Virus record (IMG/VR): IMGVR_UViG_3300048904_000449
Span: 1-22,203 of that record
From: a virus
Direction: 5' to 3' (one strand)
Length of the DNA: 22,203 nucleotides
Positions within the stretch are counted from its first letter, which is position 1. Each line of letters begins with the position of its first letter. This document shows, piece after piece, positions 3,156 through 21,281 of the stretch. The notes beneath the pieces were generated by a model. That model ran no database searches. It saw only the letters and a program-made list of their open reading frames with translations, and was not told the DNA's origin. The position numbers were made by a program, and so were the translations under genes.

Positions 3156-4217
3156 ATGGAGCAATTTTTCTCGCTTTCTGGTGTAAGAGATGAAATTAAT
3201 AAATACAGAAAAAAGTTATCACAAGTTGTGCCTGATAATGAATTTGAGAAGGAAAGAAATGATTACATTAAATCCATACTAAGTAACTTTGTTAATTCTC
3301 CGGATGAGTGGGAGTCAAAGACACAAGTAAACATTGGGTATATTTCTAATGTAATGATGAACGAACTTAAAGCTCAGGATATGGATAAGGATGGGCTGGA
3401 TATTGTTTTTACCACTTGCTTTAGATTTCTTTTGGAATATTACATAAACTCCCCTGGTGAGCTTGCTCCCCCGTATAGCTCCATGAAAGGATTCGCAATT
3501 CATAATATCAGTGGCTTTGGACAAAGAGCCCAAGATCAAATTGAATACGCGTTGAGAGAAATGCCAATTAGCATGTTAAAAGGGATGCTCAATGATACGG
3601 ATTTTAAAACTGTCCGTGAATTGCCCTCTATAACGAAAGCCGGTGAGGAACTAAAAACAAAGTGGGACTTTGAATTAGATGAACGGTTAAAAAGAATAGA
3701 AGCATTAGATTCATCTCTTAAGGAAAAAGAGCATGCTTTTAATTTTGTAGGTTTACATAAAGGGTTTTCAGATCTTTCTCGAATGAAAGAATCTGAGTAT
3801 ACCTGGGCAAGAGGAACACTTATTGGTCTTGCCATCGCTCTTCCGCTTCCTACAATTATACAGACTTGTTTTTTTATTTTCTCAGCGATTACTTTCTCAT
3901 CTCCTTGGGACTTGGTTAAAATCGCACCTGCGGTGTCATTGACGCTATTGCTAATCTATTTTTTTAGAGTTGCATTGAAAAACTTCAACTCAATCCGGGC
4001 TCAGATTATGCAAATTGAGTTACGAAAAAGCCTTTGCCAATTCATTCAAAGCTACGCTGATTATTCTGAAGGGAAGAAATCAAAAGAACATAACCCCCTT
4101 GAAAGATTTGAAGAAATAGTTTTTTCTAACATAATGGTAATGGAAGATAAAATACCATCAACCTTTGATGGCCTTGAACAAATTGCAGCGGTTCTTAACG
4201 CTATGAAAAAAAACTAA
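3156..4217 (+). CDS. Inserted accessory (moron-type) membrane protein of unknown function
   Basis: I do not recognise this 353-aa protein. The first 220 residues are charged and mostly helical, ending in a Lys/Glu-rich coiled-coil-like stretch (about 165-195). Two hydrophobic segments follow at about 221-245 and 252-272, predicting a hairpin membrane anchor with both ends in the cytoplasm, then a soluble helical C-terminus. The gene is much richer in A+T than its neighbours, lies on the opposite strand to the late genes and sits exactly between V and S, the place where P2 carries the accessory gene orf30. It starts at ATG 3156 with AGAGGA nine bases upstream and ends three bases from the stop of S. 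Its context suggests lysogenic conversion or superinfection exclusion; that is inference only. Confidence 0.85.
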   Translation: MEQFFSLSGVRDEINKYRKKLSQVVPDNEFEKERNDYIKSILSNFVNSPDEWESKTQVNIGYISNVMMNELKAQDMDKDGLDIVFTTCFRFLLEYYINSPGELAPPYSSMKGFAIHNISGFGQRAQDQIEYALREMPISMLKGMLNDTDFKTVRELPSITKAGEELKTKWDFELDERLKRIEALDSSLKEKEHAFNFVGLHKGFSDLSRMKESEYTWARGTLIGLAIALPLPTIIQTCFFIFSAITFSSPWDLVKIAPAVSLTLLLIYFFRVALKNFNSIRAQIMQIELRKSLCQFIQSYADYSEGKKSKEHNPLERFEEIVFSNIMVMEDKIPSTFDGLEQIAAVLNAMKKN

Positions 4218-12775: not shown

Positions 12776-13312
12776 CTATGCAGCAAGGATGTGCTGGATA
12801 GCAATAAACATTGGTTGTGCACCAAAAGCATTTGGTGGCTCATTAAGCTCCACAAACCCTAAACGTAAGTAAAAGTTTACCGCGTCTGGGGCTGCATCCA
12901 GATATACACCCTTCACAGGCATTGCATCGTGAATGATTTTGACTTGTTCGAAGAACTCAAGCAACAAATCCTGCCCATAGCCTTTCTTCTGCTCTTTAGT
13001 GGCTACGCCAAGCATAACCAACCGCACTACACCCACTTCGCCAGGCATTGAACCAGAAACGACACCGGCCAGTTTCTTCTTTTCAAGCGAATAAGCACTA
13101 TAAGTGCAGACCCCTAAAAGTTCGCCAGTTTTAGCATTAATTAGGGCTTTAGCTGCGCAGTTGCCATCTTTTACGCTTCCCTTAAGTGAGTCGCGCACGT
13201 ACTTATTGATTACATCATTACCGCAATCAAATTTTTTATTACCGGGATATGTGATATCAGATTGATAGGCACATACCATTACTTCGCTTACTTCATTTTG
13301 CTTGCTTTCCAT
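12776..13312 (-). CDS. GNAT acetyltransferase toxin of a type II TA pair (TacT/AtaT-like)
   Basis: This 178-aa protein is a GNAT-fold acetyltransferase. The acetyl-CoA loop Q-K-K-G-Y-G fits the Q/RxxGxG motif A, preceded by the strand VRLVMLGVATK, and the C-terminal VNFYLRLGFVEL carries the tyrosine typical of motif B. N-terminal CGNDVINKYVRDS (the 'Cys-Gly/Asn..Y' segment) is typical of TA-linked members, which block translation by acetylating the amino group of charged tRNAs. The partner antitoxin gene overlaps it by 20 bases upstream, the usual order for this class. Which aminoacyl-tRNA is modified cannot be read from the sequence. It ends at the bidirectional terminator. Confidence 0.92.
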   Translation of the reverse strand: MESKQNEVSEVMVCAYQSDITYPGNKKFDCGNDVINKYVRDSLKGSVKDGNCAAKALINAKTGELLGVCTYSAYSLEKKKLAGVVSGSMPGEVGVVRLVMLGVATKEQKKGYGQDLLLEFFEQVKIIHDAMPVKGVYLDAAPDAVNFYLRLGFVELNEPPNAFGAQPMFIAIQHILAA

Positions 13313-13604
13313 CGGTCTTTTTTCTCCGCATTAACGCTTGTAAAGCCAGCGTCGGTGCAGCAGGTTCAGACAAGAGTTGGTTCACTTGCTGCCAGCTCTT
13401 TTCAGATAGCTGTCGACGGCGCTGGTTATCCAGCACGGTTTCTGCTCTTTCAAGGGCTGCGCTTAAGATAAACGCACTCAAATCCAATCCTGCCGCCGAA
13501 GCTGCTTCACGAAGCAGGTCTTTTGAATTACTACTAGTTTTTAGTTCAACCCTCGCATCTTTAACGCTACGAGCGTCGACTGGGAACGTTGCAACTTTTG
13601 ACAT
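13293..13604 (-). CDS. DUF1778-type antitoxin (TacA/AtaR-like)
   Basis: This 103-aa protein matches the DUF1778 ribbon-helix-helix antitoxins paired with GNAT toxins. The N-terminal beta strand and helices (DARVELKTSSNSKDLLREAASAAGLDLSAFILSAALERAETVL) form the DNA-binding dimer; the C-terminal part (LSEKSWQQVNQLLSEPAAPTLALQALM) has the F/W..L..L.....P..N/ALQ.L pattern that wraps the toxin. A GAGG ribosome site lies eight bases before the ATG. It would neutralise the toxin and repress the operon. A strong promoter is found about 200 bases upstream, leaving an unusually long leader for such a module. Confidence 0.92.
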   Translation of the reverse strand: MSKVATFPVDARSVKDARVELKTSSNSKDLLREAASAAGLDLSAFILSAALERAETVLDNQRRRQLSEKSWQQVNQLLSEPAAPTLALQALMRRKKTDGKQAK

Positions 13605-17827: not shown

Positions 17828-18337
17828 TCAAACCACGCCAAACGACGCGCCAAGACCGCTTATCGCATCGACTGTTGAAGACAAAGCTGGGTTTGCCTGT
17901 ATGCGCGCCTGGACGGCCAGTGCGGCGAGTGTTAAACAACGAATACCGCTGTTAACGTTTTGCAGCAGGCTACGTTTGCAGCTCGCGCTCAATTGCTCAG
18001 TGGAAATTGCGCCAGCCGCTAACTGCCCAACCTCAGCGGTGGCTTTCATCACATACAGCGGCAGTTTGTCGTTGGCAACTTCGTTGACCGGCACGCATGG
18101 CAAGCACTGGATTTGCGCAAGTAAGCCATCAATGAGCGTCGCGTCTTCTGTGACATCGGTAAGCGTCAGAACCTCATGCACTGTCAGCTGATGTGGCTGA
18201 TCTGGGTTGAGCTTGTTACGCAGAGTTTGGGCGCGCATTCCGGATTGCTTAGCGACGTCTTCCATGTTGTGTGATAAAGCGAATTTACGGCAGGCATCGT
18301 CATAATGCGCATGGGTAGAAACCTTGAAATCAAACAT
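17828..18337 (-). CDS. cII: CII-like transcription activator (phage 186 type)
   Basis: The start MFDFKVSTHAHYDDACRKFA at 18337 gives 169 aa, the length I recall for phage 186 CII; the longer frame upstream overlaps the Cox-like gene and is not family sequence. Residues about 20-60 form an HTH (HNMEDVAKQSGMRAQTLRNKLNPDQPHQLTVHEVLTLTD), characteristic of the CII/regulatory family in P2-like phages. In 186, CII turns on the repressor promoter pE to establish lysogeny. GAGGG lies ten bases upstream. It lies 32 bases after the Cox-like gene and 9 bases before fil. Confidence 0.9.
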   Translation of the reverse strand: MFDFKVSTHAHYDDACRKFALSHNMEDVAKQSGMRAQTLRNKLNPDQPHQLTVHEVLTLTDVTEDATLIDGLLAQIQCLPCVPVNEVANDKLPLYVMKATAEVGQLAAGAISTEQLSASCKRSLLQNVNSGIRCLTLAALAVQARIQANPALSSTVDAISGLGASFGVV

Positions 18338-18368
18338 GTGCAAATAGCCCTCAACTTGCAAAATCAAG

Positions 18369-18770
18369 TTATGGTTTAATGTAGCGACATTTGATTGCCT
18401 GTTGACGATTCTTTTCGCGCCAGGCAGCAACATTGATAAGCGGATTGCCATGTTTGGTCATGGTGGTTTCTACCACTTCACCGGTCTTACGGTTGGTGCG
18501 GTTCTGTGTGTAGGTGAAGGATGGAGTAGGGGCAAGCAGCACAACGCCGTTAGCGATCCATTTCTCAAGGACGGATAGGCTGATACGGTTAGCGTTTGCG
18601 AAGTCCTGCTTGGACATGGTCGGTGACGTTGCTAACGTGACAGCTTTGTTTACAGCGTCGTTAACCGCTTCGCTGATGACAGGCATTAAAATTGCAGCGA
18701 TATTGGCAATAAAATCTTGAGATTGCACTAAGTCAAATGCGTTCTTGCTGTTTGCATTTTCAGTATGCAT
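18369..18770 (-). CDS. Cox/Apl-position regulator and excisionase candidate
   Basis: This 133-aa protein is the first gene of the lytic operon, divergent from CI, the place of P2 cox and 186 apl. The N-terminal half is helical and hydrophobic (DFIANIAAILMPVISEAVNDAVNKAV). An HTH-like region SKQDFANANRISLSVLEKWIANGVV follows, and the C-terminus has the HGNPLINVAAWREKNRQ segment seen in phage Cox family proteins. Such proteins repress the lysogenic promoter and direct excision. It is longer than P2 Cox (91 aa). GGAG lies ten bases before the ATG. The family call is moderately sure; the role comes from position. Confidence 0.72.
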   Translation of the reverse strand: MHTENANSKNAFDLVQSQDFIANIAAILMPVISEAVNDAVNKAVTLATSPTMSKQDFANANRISLSVLEKWIANGVVLLAPTPSFTYTQNRTNRKTGEVVETTMTKHGNPLINVAAWREKNRQQAIKCRYIKP

Positions 18771-18884
18771 AACGCAGTATCTCCTTTTGATCGTTTTGTT
18801 CTACGGTGTGTCATGTGGTGTGTTACATCCTAGATCAACAAATGATGTCTAGTAAACAACAAATGTTTATTTATTTGGTGGTGT
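18771..18884. promoter_or_regulatory. CI/Cox divergent switch region with direct repeats
   Basis: This region must hold both promoters of the lysis-lysogeny switch. It has the direct repeat CAACAAATG at 18836-18844 and 18857-18865, spaced exactly 21 bases (two helical turns), the direct repeat GGTGTGT at 18805-18811 and 18817-18823, and an inverted repeat CTAGA/TCTAG at 18830-18852. A possible leftward promoter is TTTACT-N18-TAGGAT within these repeats, so bound repressor would block it. Long perfect palindromes are lacking. The repeats are candidate CI and Cox operators. Confidence 0.55.
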
Positions 18885-19730
18885 ATGGATTTTAGCAAAG
18901 GTTCAGCCTTAGAAATTGTTGAGCGTCTTTCGTCTGCATATGGCGTTGCAACACAGAAAGCGTTGGCCGAATGCCTGGGTGTGCCTGCTGCGAACGTAAG
19001 TAACTGGGTGCAGCGTGATAGCGTTCCAGGCAGCGCGTTCGTGAAATGCGCATTAGATACGGGGAGTGATCTTCATTGGCTAACAAGCGGAAAACTTGCA
19101 AATGCAAATATAGACGCTTCGCCTAATTCCCTTAATGGTGAAGCTCTTTACACTGAAATCACTTCAAACGGTGGCAAACCAGTTTTGCGTCGCATCATGG
19201 ACGCCTACGGCTTCACTCTACAAAAACAACTGTGTGAACTGCTGGGAATTTCATCTGGCACGGTCAGTACTTGGGTGCGGCGAAACTACTTTCCCGGGGA
19301 TGTAGTGGTGACGTGTGCGCTCGATACCGGAGTCTCACTGCAATGGTTAGCAACAGGAAAGGGCTCACTACAAAATAAATCAAATAGTCTACAAAGTGTG
19401 AACTCTTCAGTTCCGCGTAAAAATCTTGTAGCAGGAATTTTGCAGGAGGCCGAATTCTGGGAGATTAATTTAGGTTTTATCCCCCACGCGGTAAGTAAAC
19501 CTGTTTTTATTACGAGTAACATGGGCGCATGGATTGTCGATGTGAGTGTGGATGAAATTAGTAATGGTCGATGGTTGCTGGGCATAAACGATAAATATGA
19601 TATTTATGATGTTGCAATTTTACCGGGAAATAAGATTAATGTAACAAGCATTGGCGCGAATTTCATTTGTAAATCTGATGAGATTGATGTTGCAGGTAAG
19701 GTTATATTGACGATAGATTTCAATTTTTAA
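18885..19730 (+). CDS. cI: CI-type repressor with two tandem DNA-binding domains
   Basis: This 281-aa protein is the lysogeny repressor by position and by resemblance to 186 CI, which is 192 aa with one HTH domain. Here the N-terminal domain occurs twice, residues 10-70 and 99-159, with about 29 identities in 61 aligned positions by hand (shared AYG, QK.L.E.LG, VS.WV.R, PG, CALDTG, L.WL..GK). A linker and a C-terminal domain (about 180-281; NGRWLLGINDKYDIYDVAILPGNKINV) follow, like the 186 CI oligomerisation domain. I see no Ala-Gly/Ser-Lys self-cleavage site, so RecA-triggered autocleavage is unlikely. The start is ATG 18885. The next gene in the same direction is the OLD-type gene. Confidence 0.88.
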   Translation: MDFSKGSALEIVERLSSAYGVATQKALAECLGVPAANVSNWVQRDSVPGSAFVKCALDTGSDLHWLTSGKLANANIDASPNSLNGEALYTEITSNGGKPVLRRIMDAYGFTLQKQLCELLGISSGTVSTWVRRNYFPGDVVVTCALDTGVSLQWLATGKGSLQNKSNSLQSVNSSVPRKNLVAGILQEAEFWEINLGFIPHAVSKPVFITSNMGAWIVDVSVDEISNGRWLLGINDKYDIYDVAILPGNKINVTSIGANFICKSDEIDVAGKVILTIDFNF

Positions 19731-19769
19731 TTTAACTATAAGTTTCCTTGTGAAAATGGAGTGGCAGCT

Positions 19770-21281
19770 ATGTTTCAGAGTGAGATTAGACAAGGCACCA
19801 TAAATGAATTGTTAGAAAAAGTGAAAGCAAAAAAATATGGTAAGTACCTCCTCAAAATTAATATAGATAAAGCAAGATCAATTAATAATAAAACAATCAC
19901 TTTTGATTTTCCTGTGACTGCCATTGTTGGACCTAACGGGGGCGGGAAATCAACCATAGCCGGTGCGGCTGCTATTTTATATAAAGAAGTCGCTCCAGCT
20001 CAATTTTTTGCTAAGAGTGGTGCATACGATGCTAGTATGCAAAATTGGAAAATTGAGTACGAGGCTATTGATAGGGGGGTTCAGAAAAGTAATGATACTG
20101 TAAAGCGCACTGCTAAATACCATAATCTTAAATGGGCTAGAGGAACTCTCGATAGAAGCGTACTAATTTTCGGTGTAATCCGTACTGTGCCAGCCTCGGA
20201 ACGAAAGGAATTAAAGCGCTGTGTATCAAATAATTTTATTGTTCGCCCAGATCGAATAGAAGGTTTATCAGAAATCGTTGCACTTTCAGTCTCTGCAATA
20301 CTTGATAAAGATGTTTCAGAATTTAAACATATGAAAGTTGATGAAAATGGAAATGTAACATTGTTATCCGGGGTGAATAAAACCGGAGATTCATTTTCAG
20401 AGTTTCATTTTGGTGCTGGTGAATCAAGTATCATTAGGATGGTTCTTCAGCTAGAAGCTGCTGAGGATCATTCTTTAGTCATAGTTGAAGAGATTGAAAA
20501 TGGTCTGCATCCAATAGCTACAATAAGGATGGTTGAATATCTTATAGAACTTGCAGAAAGGAAAAAAATACAGGCTATCTTTACAACACACTCTAATGAC
20601 GCATTAATACCTCTTCCCAGTGAGGCTATATGGGCCTCAGTTAATGGACAGTTATATCAAGGTAAACTCGACGTCAAATCGTTACGCGCAATAAGCGGAC
20701 AAATAAATTCAAAGTTAATCATATTTGTTGAAGATGAGTTTGCAGCAATTTGGGTAAAAACAATCTTAAACTTTATGCCAAATGTTGCTATTGATGCGAT
20801 TTCCATTCACGCAATGAAAGGAGATGGGACTTCAGTCAAAGTGCATGAAAACCATAATATAGATCCTAGCGCACAACAAAAATCGTTATGCATCATTGAT
20901 GGTGACTCGTTACAGCTTGATTCAGATGAAAAATTGATCTTTCGACTTCCTGGGGCAGGGCCAGAATCAACTGTATATAACTCTATATTGAATAGCATTG
21001 ATGATTTGGCTGGTGAACTGGCTGTTCAATTACTCAAGCCGTTTGAATTCCAAGAAAAATTGAAAGAAAAAATGGCGAGTGTTAGAAATACAAACCGTGA
21101 CTATCATTTGTTGTTCAGTCAGTTAGGTCGGGCTATCGGATTAGTTTCTGAGTCCCGAGTAAAAGAAGCATTTCTGACTCAATGGTGTGTTAAACATAAA
21201 GATTTTATTGATGAGTTATACGTGAAAATTTCACAGTATTTACCTCTCGAGAGTGACGAGGTGGAAATAAAACAATCTTGA
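19770..21281 (+). CDS. OLD-type ABC-ATPase/Toprim nuclease, likely antiphage defence
   Basis: I start at ATG 19770 (503 aa), because GGAG lies eight bases upstream; GTG 19761 would add MAA. The N-terminal ABC-type ATPase has Walker A GPNGGGKST (54-62), a signature-like FGAGESS (214-220), Walker B LVIVEEIE (236-243) and the H-loop TTHS (273-276). The C-terminal Toprim domain has the glutamate of IIFVEDE (about 321) and the DGD of CIIDGDS (377-379), the metal-binding residues expected in a nuclease. This layout is that of P2 OLD and GajA-like proteins; fused PARIS-type ATPase-Toprim proteins are an alternative. The gene is AT-rich and 39 bases downstream of CI, so it is probably expressed in the lysogen. 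Target and partner are unknown. Confidence 0.9.
   Translation: MFQSEIRQGTINELLEKVKAKKYGKYLLKINIDKARSINNKTITFDFPVTAIVGPNGGGKSTIAGAAAILYKEVAPAQFFAKSGAYDASMQNWKIEYEAIDRGVQKSNDTVKRTAKYHNLKWARGTLDRSVLIFGVIRTVPASERKELKRCVSNNFIVRPDRIEGLSEIVALSVSAILDKDVSEFKHMKVDENGNVTLLSGVNKTGDSFSEFHFGAGESSIIRMVLQLEAAEDHSLVIVEEIENGLHPIATIRMVEYLIELAERKKIQAIFTTHSNDALIPLPSEAIWASVNGQLYQGKLDVKSLRAISGQINSKLIIFVEDEFAAIWVKTILNFMPNVAIDAISIHAMKGDGTSVKVHENHNIDPSAQQKSLCIIDGDSLQLDSDEKLIFRLPGAGPESTVYNSILNSIDDLAGELAVQLLKPFEFQEKLKEKMASVRNTNRDYHLLFSQLGRAIGLVSESRVKEAFLTQWCVKHKDFIDELYVKISQYLPLESDEVEIKQS

Follow-up and report, generated by a model that had tools for sequence, protein, structure and literature searches.

In the window analysed here, the whole 22,203-nt stretch of the viral record IMGVR_UViG_3300048904_000449, the CI repressor carries two homologous HTH domains in one chain, and we consider it likely that these two heads split the work of coliphage 186 CI between them: HTH1 would act at the lytic promoter pR and determine immunity, HTH2 would act at the FR, FL and pB sites, the C-terminal domain would oligomerise, and the segment made up of pR and HTH1 could be exchanged among phages. 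The features on which this reading is built are collected in Table 1.

Table 1. Annotated and predicted features of the immunity region
Feature	Position	Strand	Basis
cI, double-headed immunity repressor, 281 aa	18885..19730	+	ORF, ATG start, Pfam, BLASTP
HTH1, residues 10-70, variable, predicted immunity-type DNA-binding domain; recognition helix residues 35-44	18912..19094	+	PF07022, model helices, alignment classes
Inter-head linker	19095..19178	+	predicted model: residues 72-82 with pLDDT <50, helix 85-94
HTH2, residues 99-163, nearly invariant predicted DNA-binding domain; recognition helix residues 124-132 (SSGTVSTWV region)	19179..19373	+	PF07022, alignment
186-type oligomerisation domain, C-terminal, residues 175-277	19407..19715	+	PF16452, fold match 2FKD
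Predicted FR site AACTTGCAAAATCAAGTT, HTH2-type palindrome	18353..18370	.	15 bp upstream of cII start
Predicted FL site AACTTGCAAATGCAAATA, HTH2-type palindrome, 2 mismatches	19093..19110	.	inside cI, codons 70-76, disordered linker after HTH1
Predicted pR, driving cox-cII	-10 TAGGAT 18827-18832, -35 TTTACT 18851-18856, 18-bp spacer	-	position relative to mapped 186 pR, conservation
Predicted HTH1 operator 1, ATCAACAAATGAT	18834..18846	.	sequence, class-A relatives
Predicted HTH1 operator 2, palindrome TAAACAACAAATGTTTA	18853..18869	.	sole exact copy in window
GGTGT direct repeats, probable Cox/Apl array in the interval where pR and pL face each other	18805..18822	.	186 layout
cox/apl-position gene, 133 aa, PHROG 3554 without named function	18369..18770	-	position
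cII, PF06892, start likely 18337	17828..18337	-	Pfam, alignment, FR geometry

Two homologous heads in one CI chain

Scanned alone, residues 11-70 and residues 100-163 of the 281 aa encoded at 18885-19727 each match PF07022 (Phage_CI_repr), with 70.2 bits (E 1.9e-19) and 99.0 bits (E 1.9e-28), and residues 175-274 match PF16452 (Phage_CI_C) with 64.3 bits. An earlier note, made from the letters of the window, had proposed two tandem copies of a CI-type HTH with about 29 identical positions counted by hand; BLASTP returns the same figure in an ungapped alignment of the two heads (29/60 identical, 48%, E 3e-22), where shuffled sequences gave a mean identity of 23% and a maximum of 35% (500 shuffles). 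In an AlphaFold2 model of the monomer both regions fold as five-helix HTH bundles, at residues 8-19, 24-31, 35-44, 49-59 and 63-68 in HTH1 and 97-108, 113-120, 124-132, 138-148 and 152-157 in HTH2, with block pLDDT mostly 74-89, so that the tandem copies are confirmed by structure prediction as well as by the alignment and by the profile match of each half.

Residues 4-73 of the model match Cro/XRE-type HTHs (Z about 6) and residues 89-281 match the structure of 186 CI (2FJR), while the beta-rich, 186 CI-like C-terminal domain superposes on 2FKD with a Z of 17.9 and 1.5 A over 110 residues. The linker is poorly ordered with one helix, and given the low pTM (0.39) the model does not predict how the two heads are arranged relative to each other. 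The protein is a variant of the 186-type family and not a 186-identical member: it has the PF07022 HTH, in two copies, the PF16452 domain with the 186 fold, and a gene position facing the cox/apl-cII operon, but it departs from the single HTH per chain of 186, a trait that the Pfam families do not demand. Assembly into a 14-mer wheel is a trait of the 186-type CI repressor.

Occurrence and origin of double-headed CI proteins

Double-headed CI proteins are already present in sequence databases. We found relatives that align across both heads, at 50-54% identity, in Escherichia phage Midge, Klebsiella phage RCIP0057 and the Salmonella phages SW9, SI22, SEN1 and PSP3. The cI gene of PSP3 (GenBank AY135486; same genus as 186) is annotated as "immunity repressor", and the double-headed proteins of SW9, SEN1, Midge and E. 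coli prophages are annotated simply as "CI". A DNA-level match was present in 60 of 5,426 complete E. coli genomes, and the three matches that were opened encode CIs of 278-286 aa that are two-headed by domain scan. A profile search returned 458 relatives in IMG/VR, with 80 retained, plus a set of 74 from genomes in GTDB, almost all of Enterobacterales origin; 158 of 182 loci were double-headed, which is a biased figure and not a prevalence as the query itself was double-headed, and a non-redundant set of 151 double-headed loci was used for the site counts. A contig labelled Chryseobacterium (L133) carries an Enterobacterales-type P2-like CI and probably reflects contamination or mislabelling.

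By the criterion that the earlier note had set, the novelty of this architecture is partly refuted, since the CIs of PSP3, SW9, SEN1, Midge, E. coli and many other Enterobacterales P2-like elements share it. What stands is that literature searches on the CI of PSP3, on phage repressors with two HTHs and on immunity groups of P2-like phages yielded no published description of a two-headed CI, and the division of labour between the heads appears undescribed as far as could be found in the literature searched.

In a tree of the individual domains, all HTH1s, one independent case apart, form one clade and all HTH2s another, together with the HTHs of single-headed proteins (100/100), which bears out the suggestion that the duplication is old and indicates that the second head is ancient. 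The exception is a pair of Klebsiella phage CIs (L064 and L065), whose HTH1 lies outside the common HTH1 clade and groups with single-headed Felsduovirus-type HTHs; these double heads apparently stem from an independent HTH duplication. Single-headed HTH2-like CIs nest among the HTH2s, and we also considered an origin of these proteins by loss of HTH1, which the nesting fits and to which the AU test leaves an alternative (p 0.34).

Unequal conservation of the heads

HTH2 is nearly invariant in the alignment of relatives, with the recognition helix SSGTVSTWVRR, and HTH1 falls into discrete helix classes that include PAANVSNW (in the window), PANNISGW, AKSNVASW, AKSNVAGW and PSNNVSAW. Among sampled pairs, mean pairwise identity was 60% for HTH1 versus 79% for HTH2, and HTH2 was the more similar head in 91% of pairs. 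Two loci (L022 and L028) that are alike in the cox coding region (95%), HTH2 (90%) and the C-terminal domain (98%) are divergent in pR (59%) and HTH1 (66%), the pattern expected if the pR-HTH1 segment had been exchanged. We infer that this exchange, with its crossover mechanism, took place by recombination: the pR operators and HTH1 would form a cassette of ~270 bp between conserved flanks that could be swapped among phages while leaving the circuit otherwise undisturbed.

The lytic promoter and its predicted operators

A consensus promoter scan missed pR, and the promoter was placed by analogy to 186. The ~57-bp region over pR in double-headed phages varies with the HTH1 class, and it contains class-specific sites that are often palindromes (TAAACAACAATTGTTTA; ATCGTAAAAACGAT; AATCGCAAATGCGATT; TTTTCTTATCTGTAAATAAGAAAA; ATCACATTTGTGAT; ACACGTAACGTGT). 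In the window, CAACAAATG occurs twice in pR as a 21-bp direct repeat, which is better read as two predicted adjacent operators; an automated repeat search of 18760-18900 returned none, although the element is there twice. The earlier note had suggested that a two-headed monomer could read direct repeats instead of palindromes. This idea finds no support here: the FR, FL and pB sites described below are clear palindromes and most pR classes include palindromes too, making pairing of like heads with like the simpler reading.

The GGTGT repeats beside pR are constant across HTH1 classes and probably correspond to an Apl/Cox (excisionase) array, as known in 186 (PMC7498355). We had also considered these repeats as an HTH2 site, which was rejected on position and direct-repeat layout, and the Cox/Apl alternative is likewise one that we infer. 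The cII open reading frame (17828-18451, minus strand) could begin at an upstream ATG at 18451 that overlaps cox; the alignment and the FR geometry favour 18337.

A common palindrome at FR, FL and pB

The 186 record (U32222) lists three CI sites at pR, one at FR, one at FL and a pair at pB, and it places seven Apl sites in the interval from pR to pL; its FR, FL and pB sites (ATTCAC...GTGAAT) are unlike its pR sites. Among the double-headed phages, a palindrome of the type AACTTGCAnnTGCAAGTT, which first came to notice in PSP3 and Midge (at pB) and in single-headed relatives (at pR), recurs at FR, FL and (in relatives) pB whatever the HTH1 class. The window has predicted sites at the 186 positions of both FR and FL: the FR palindrome overlaps the cox stop exactly as 186 FR does, and the FL palindrome, found at the same offset in relatives, corresponds to 186 FL. 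The contig of the window lacks ogr, and pB sites were seen in relatives only.

When strong HTH2-type palindromes (at least 13 of 16 positions, with a motif picked after viewing some of the same sequences) were counted in the 151 non-redundant loci, we found 93 at FR, 75 at FL, 4 at pB, to which few contigs extend, 5 at pR, all of these in Serratia types, and 11 elsewhere (933 kb). With a threshold of at least 12, we found the FL site in 108 of the 151 loci, whereas none of the 151 had such a site at a control offset. With ogr in these records as the guide to pB, clear copies were seen there in five phages (L009, L015, L024, L046 and L058), and the pB sites of L187, L191, L192, L212 and L216 are weak or absent; for chromosomal loci, the ogr examined may be that of a different prophage.

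In the types from Rahnella, Serratia, Kosakonia and Lonsdalea, FR was either missed or failed to match, in part because cII went unrecognised there. The Rahnella-like types (L053-L055, L097, L106, L109 and L169) mostly have the FL palindrome without a matching FR, and the gap upstream of cII holds TTGAGTCAGATTATTCAA in its place. Six Serratia loci (L089, L092, L094, L095, L100 and L103) have an HTH2-type palindrome also at pR (-78), where an HTH1-type palindrome, TCGCAAAATGCGA, makes for a mixed operator.

Within cI, codons 71-74 at FL show the strongest synonymous constraint in the two-head region, with serine set aside for its two codon boxes: Leu is CTT in 79 of 83 cases, Ala is GCA in 108 of 111, Asn is AAT in 87 of 88 and the second Ala is GCA in 103 of 116. 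These codons fall in the low-confidence linker of the model. Judged by its sequence, FL is a DNA element within cI.

Assignment of the heads to their sites

Differences at pR track HTH1 (partial rank correlation 0.40, against 0.18 for HTH2 and -0.02 for the C-terminal domain; n = 103) and differences at FR track HTH2 (0.70, against -0.10 for HTH1 and 0.02 for the C-terminal domain; n = 103). Since FR and HTH2 flank the pR-HTH1 segment on opposite sides, close linkage is not the cause of the correlation between them. Changes in the HTH2 recognition helix also go with changes in the palindrome: T129 to S or A variants accompany TTG to TTA, giving AACTTAA at FR and FL (in L110 the pB site is altered as well, along with its HTH2 variant), and STAT/PTGT variants accompany a TTCGAA core, AATTCGA. 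Helix and site are concordant in 99 of 101 rows, which represent only ~4-6 independent changes, too few for significance. In single-headed relatives with an HTH2-like domain as their sole HTH, this type of palindrome is found at pR, for example AACTTGCATTTGCAAGTT in L132.

Most likely, immunity is set by HTH1 and the shared sites are read by HTH2, with each head binding palindromes as a dimer. HTH1 dimers on immunity-specific palindromes over pR would determine the immunity type, and HTH2 dimers would occupy the common palindrome at FR (beside pE and cII), FL (in cI) and pB. In 186, CI at FR represses pE (PMC7708051), and the same may apply here; pB, the promoter of the late activator ogr/B, would be repressed through its HTH2 site, FL would serve looping, and the C-terminal domain would drive CI oligomerisation and assembly. 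Both heads are probably in use, as had been proposed, because each has its own conserved set of predicted operators.

We weighed three other explanations. HTH1 and HTH2 of one chain might instead bind adjacent half-sites, as direct repeats or asymmetrically, which the two copies of CAACAAATG 21 bp apart in the window pR would suit and for which a mycobacteriophage immunity repressor with two domains on an asymmetric site offers a precedent (PMC9283540). We regard this as improbable: FR, FL and pB are symmetric and contain no HTH1-class sequence, most pR classes include symmetric sites, and single-headed relatives make do with the HTH2-type palindrome by itself. The conservation of HTH2 spans the whole domain, beyond the recognition helix, and in 186-type phages CI is bound by an antirepressor (PMC3121763), so HTH2 could be a protein-contact domain (for instance for the Tum antirepressor or for dimerisation) that has ceased to read DNA, with FR, FL and pB read by HTH1 or another protein. 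To this we would give quite a small chance, as these three sites are constant while HTH1 classes vary, HTH2 helix variants change along with the sites, and HTH2-like single-headed CIs have the palindrome at pR, where the sole HTH must bind.

Backbone history is common to everything outside the HTH1-pR segment, so the partial correlations alone are no proof, and the Cox array also tracks HTH2 (partial 0.55). Together with the small number of independent site changes, this would agree with shared ancestry only, in which HTH1-pR was swapped and FR, HTH2 and the rest are merely a co-inherited backbone. That account is very improbable in our judgement, for it leaves unexplained one palindrome at three places, at mapped 186 CI positions, as well as the palindrome at pR of single-headed phages and the synonymous constraint at FL.

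Implications and neighbouring genes

It is an old question how immunity can change when one domain also reads distant sites, which a change of its helix breaks; the two-head split would be a simple answer, seen in sequence over roughly 150 loci, and it predicts a role for each head. It could let phages switch immunity type without rewiring the remaining control circuit. In this well-studied phage family, the switching of immunity, the control of late genes and looping through FL would become separable questions, for which isolated phages (PSP3 and Midge) exist. Because HTH2 and the FR, FL and pB sites are common to many HTH1 classes, a prophage CI might also repress pB of an incoming phage of another immunity type and so provide a common second layer of superinfection immunity beneath the type-specific one, the HTH1-pR cassette then being the layer open to free exchange, a possibility that we find rather doubtful.

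Directly 3' of cI lies a 506-aa AAA ATPase gene (19761-21278, plus strand), whose product gives a 707-bit match to the PADLOC candidate defence protein HEC-04, which would make it a defence cargo gene at the lysogenic operon position. Between the portal and replication genes (12776-13604, minus strand), a GNAT acetyltransferase (12776-13312) adjoins a TacA1-like antitoxin (13293-13604), likely a TacAT-type toxin-antitoxin pair. A 353-aa open reading frame (3156-4217, plus strand) among tail genes of the opposite strand had no Pfam or PADLOC match.

Comparison with known systems

Coliphage 186 CI (PDB 2FJR and 2FKD; U32222) shares with the window the PF07022 HTH fold, the PF16452 domain, the gene order, the positions of the pR, FR and FL sites, and pR sequences distinct from those of FR, FL and pB; it differs in that its single HTH must read both kinds of site, which two heads appear to split here. 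The CIs of PSP3 (AAN08403, Eganvirus), SW9, SEN1, Midge, RCIP0057 and an E. coli prophage (WP_000093633) have the double-headed architecture, the HTH2 recognition helix and the FR and FL sites, with a pB site in PSP3, SW9 and Midge, but belong to another HTH1 class and have other operators at pR. Klebsiella phages ST437-OXA245phi4.2 and Kp4860-7 (Elveevirus 4LV2017) likewise combine two PF07022-type HTHs with the C-terminal domain, but their HTH1 is of Felsduovirus type, apparently of separate origin, and AACTTGCA sites are lacking. The repressor of mycobacteriophage TipsytheTRex is also an immunity repressor with two DNA-binding domains per chain, an HTH and an unlike second domain, and it binds one asymmetric site as a monomer (PMC9283540). 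The CI of the window does not belong with such Cluster A two-domain repressors: its two domains are homologous PF07022 HTHs, and they appear to read separate predicted palindromes.
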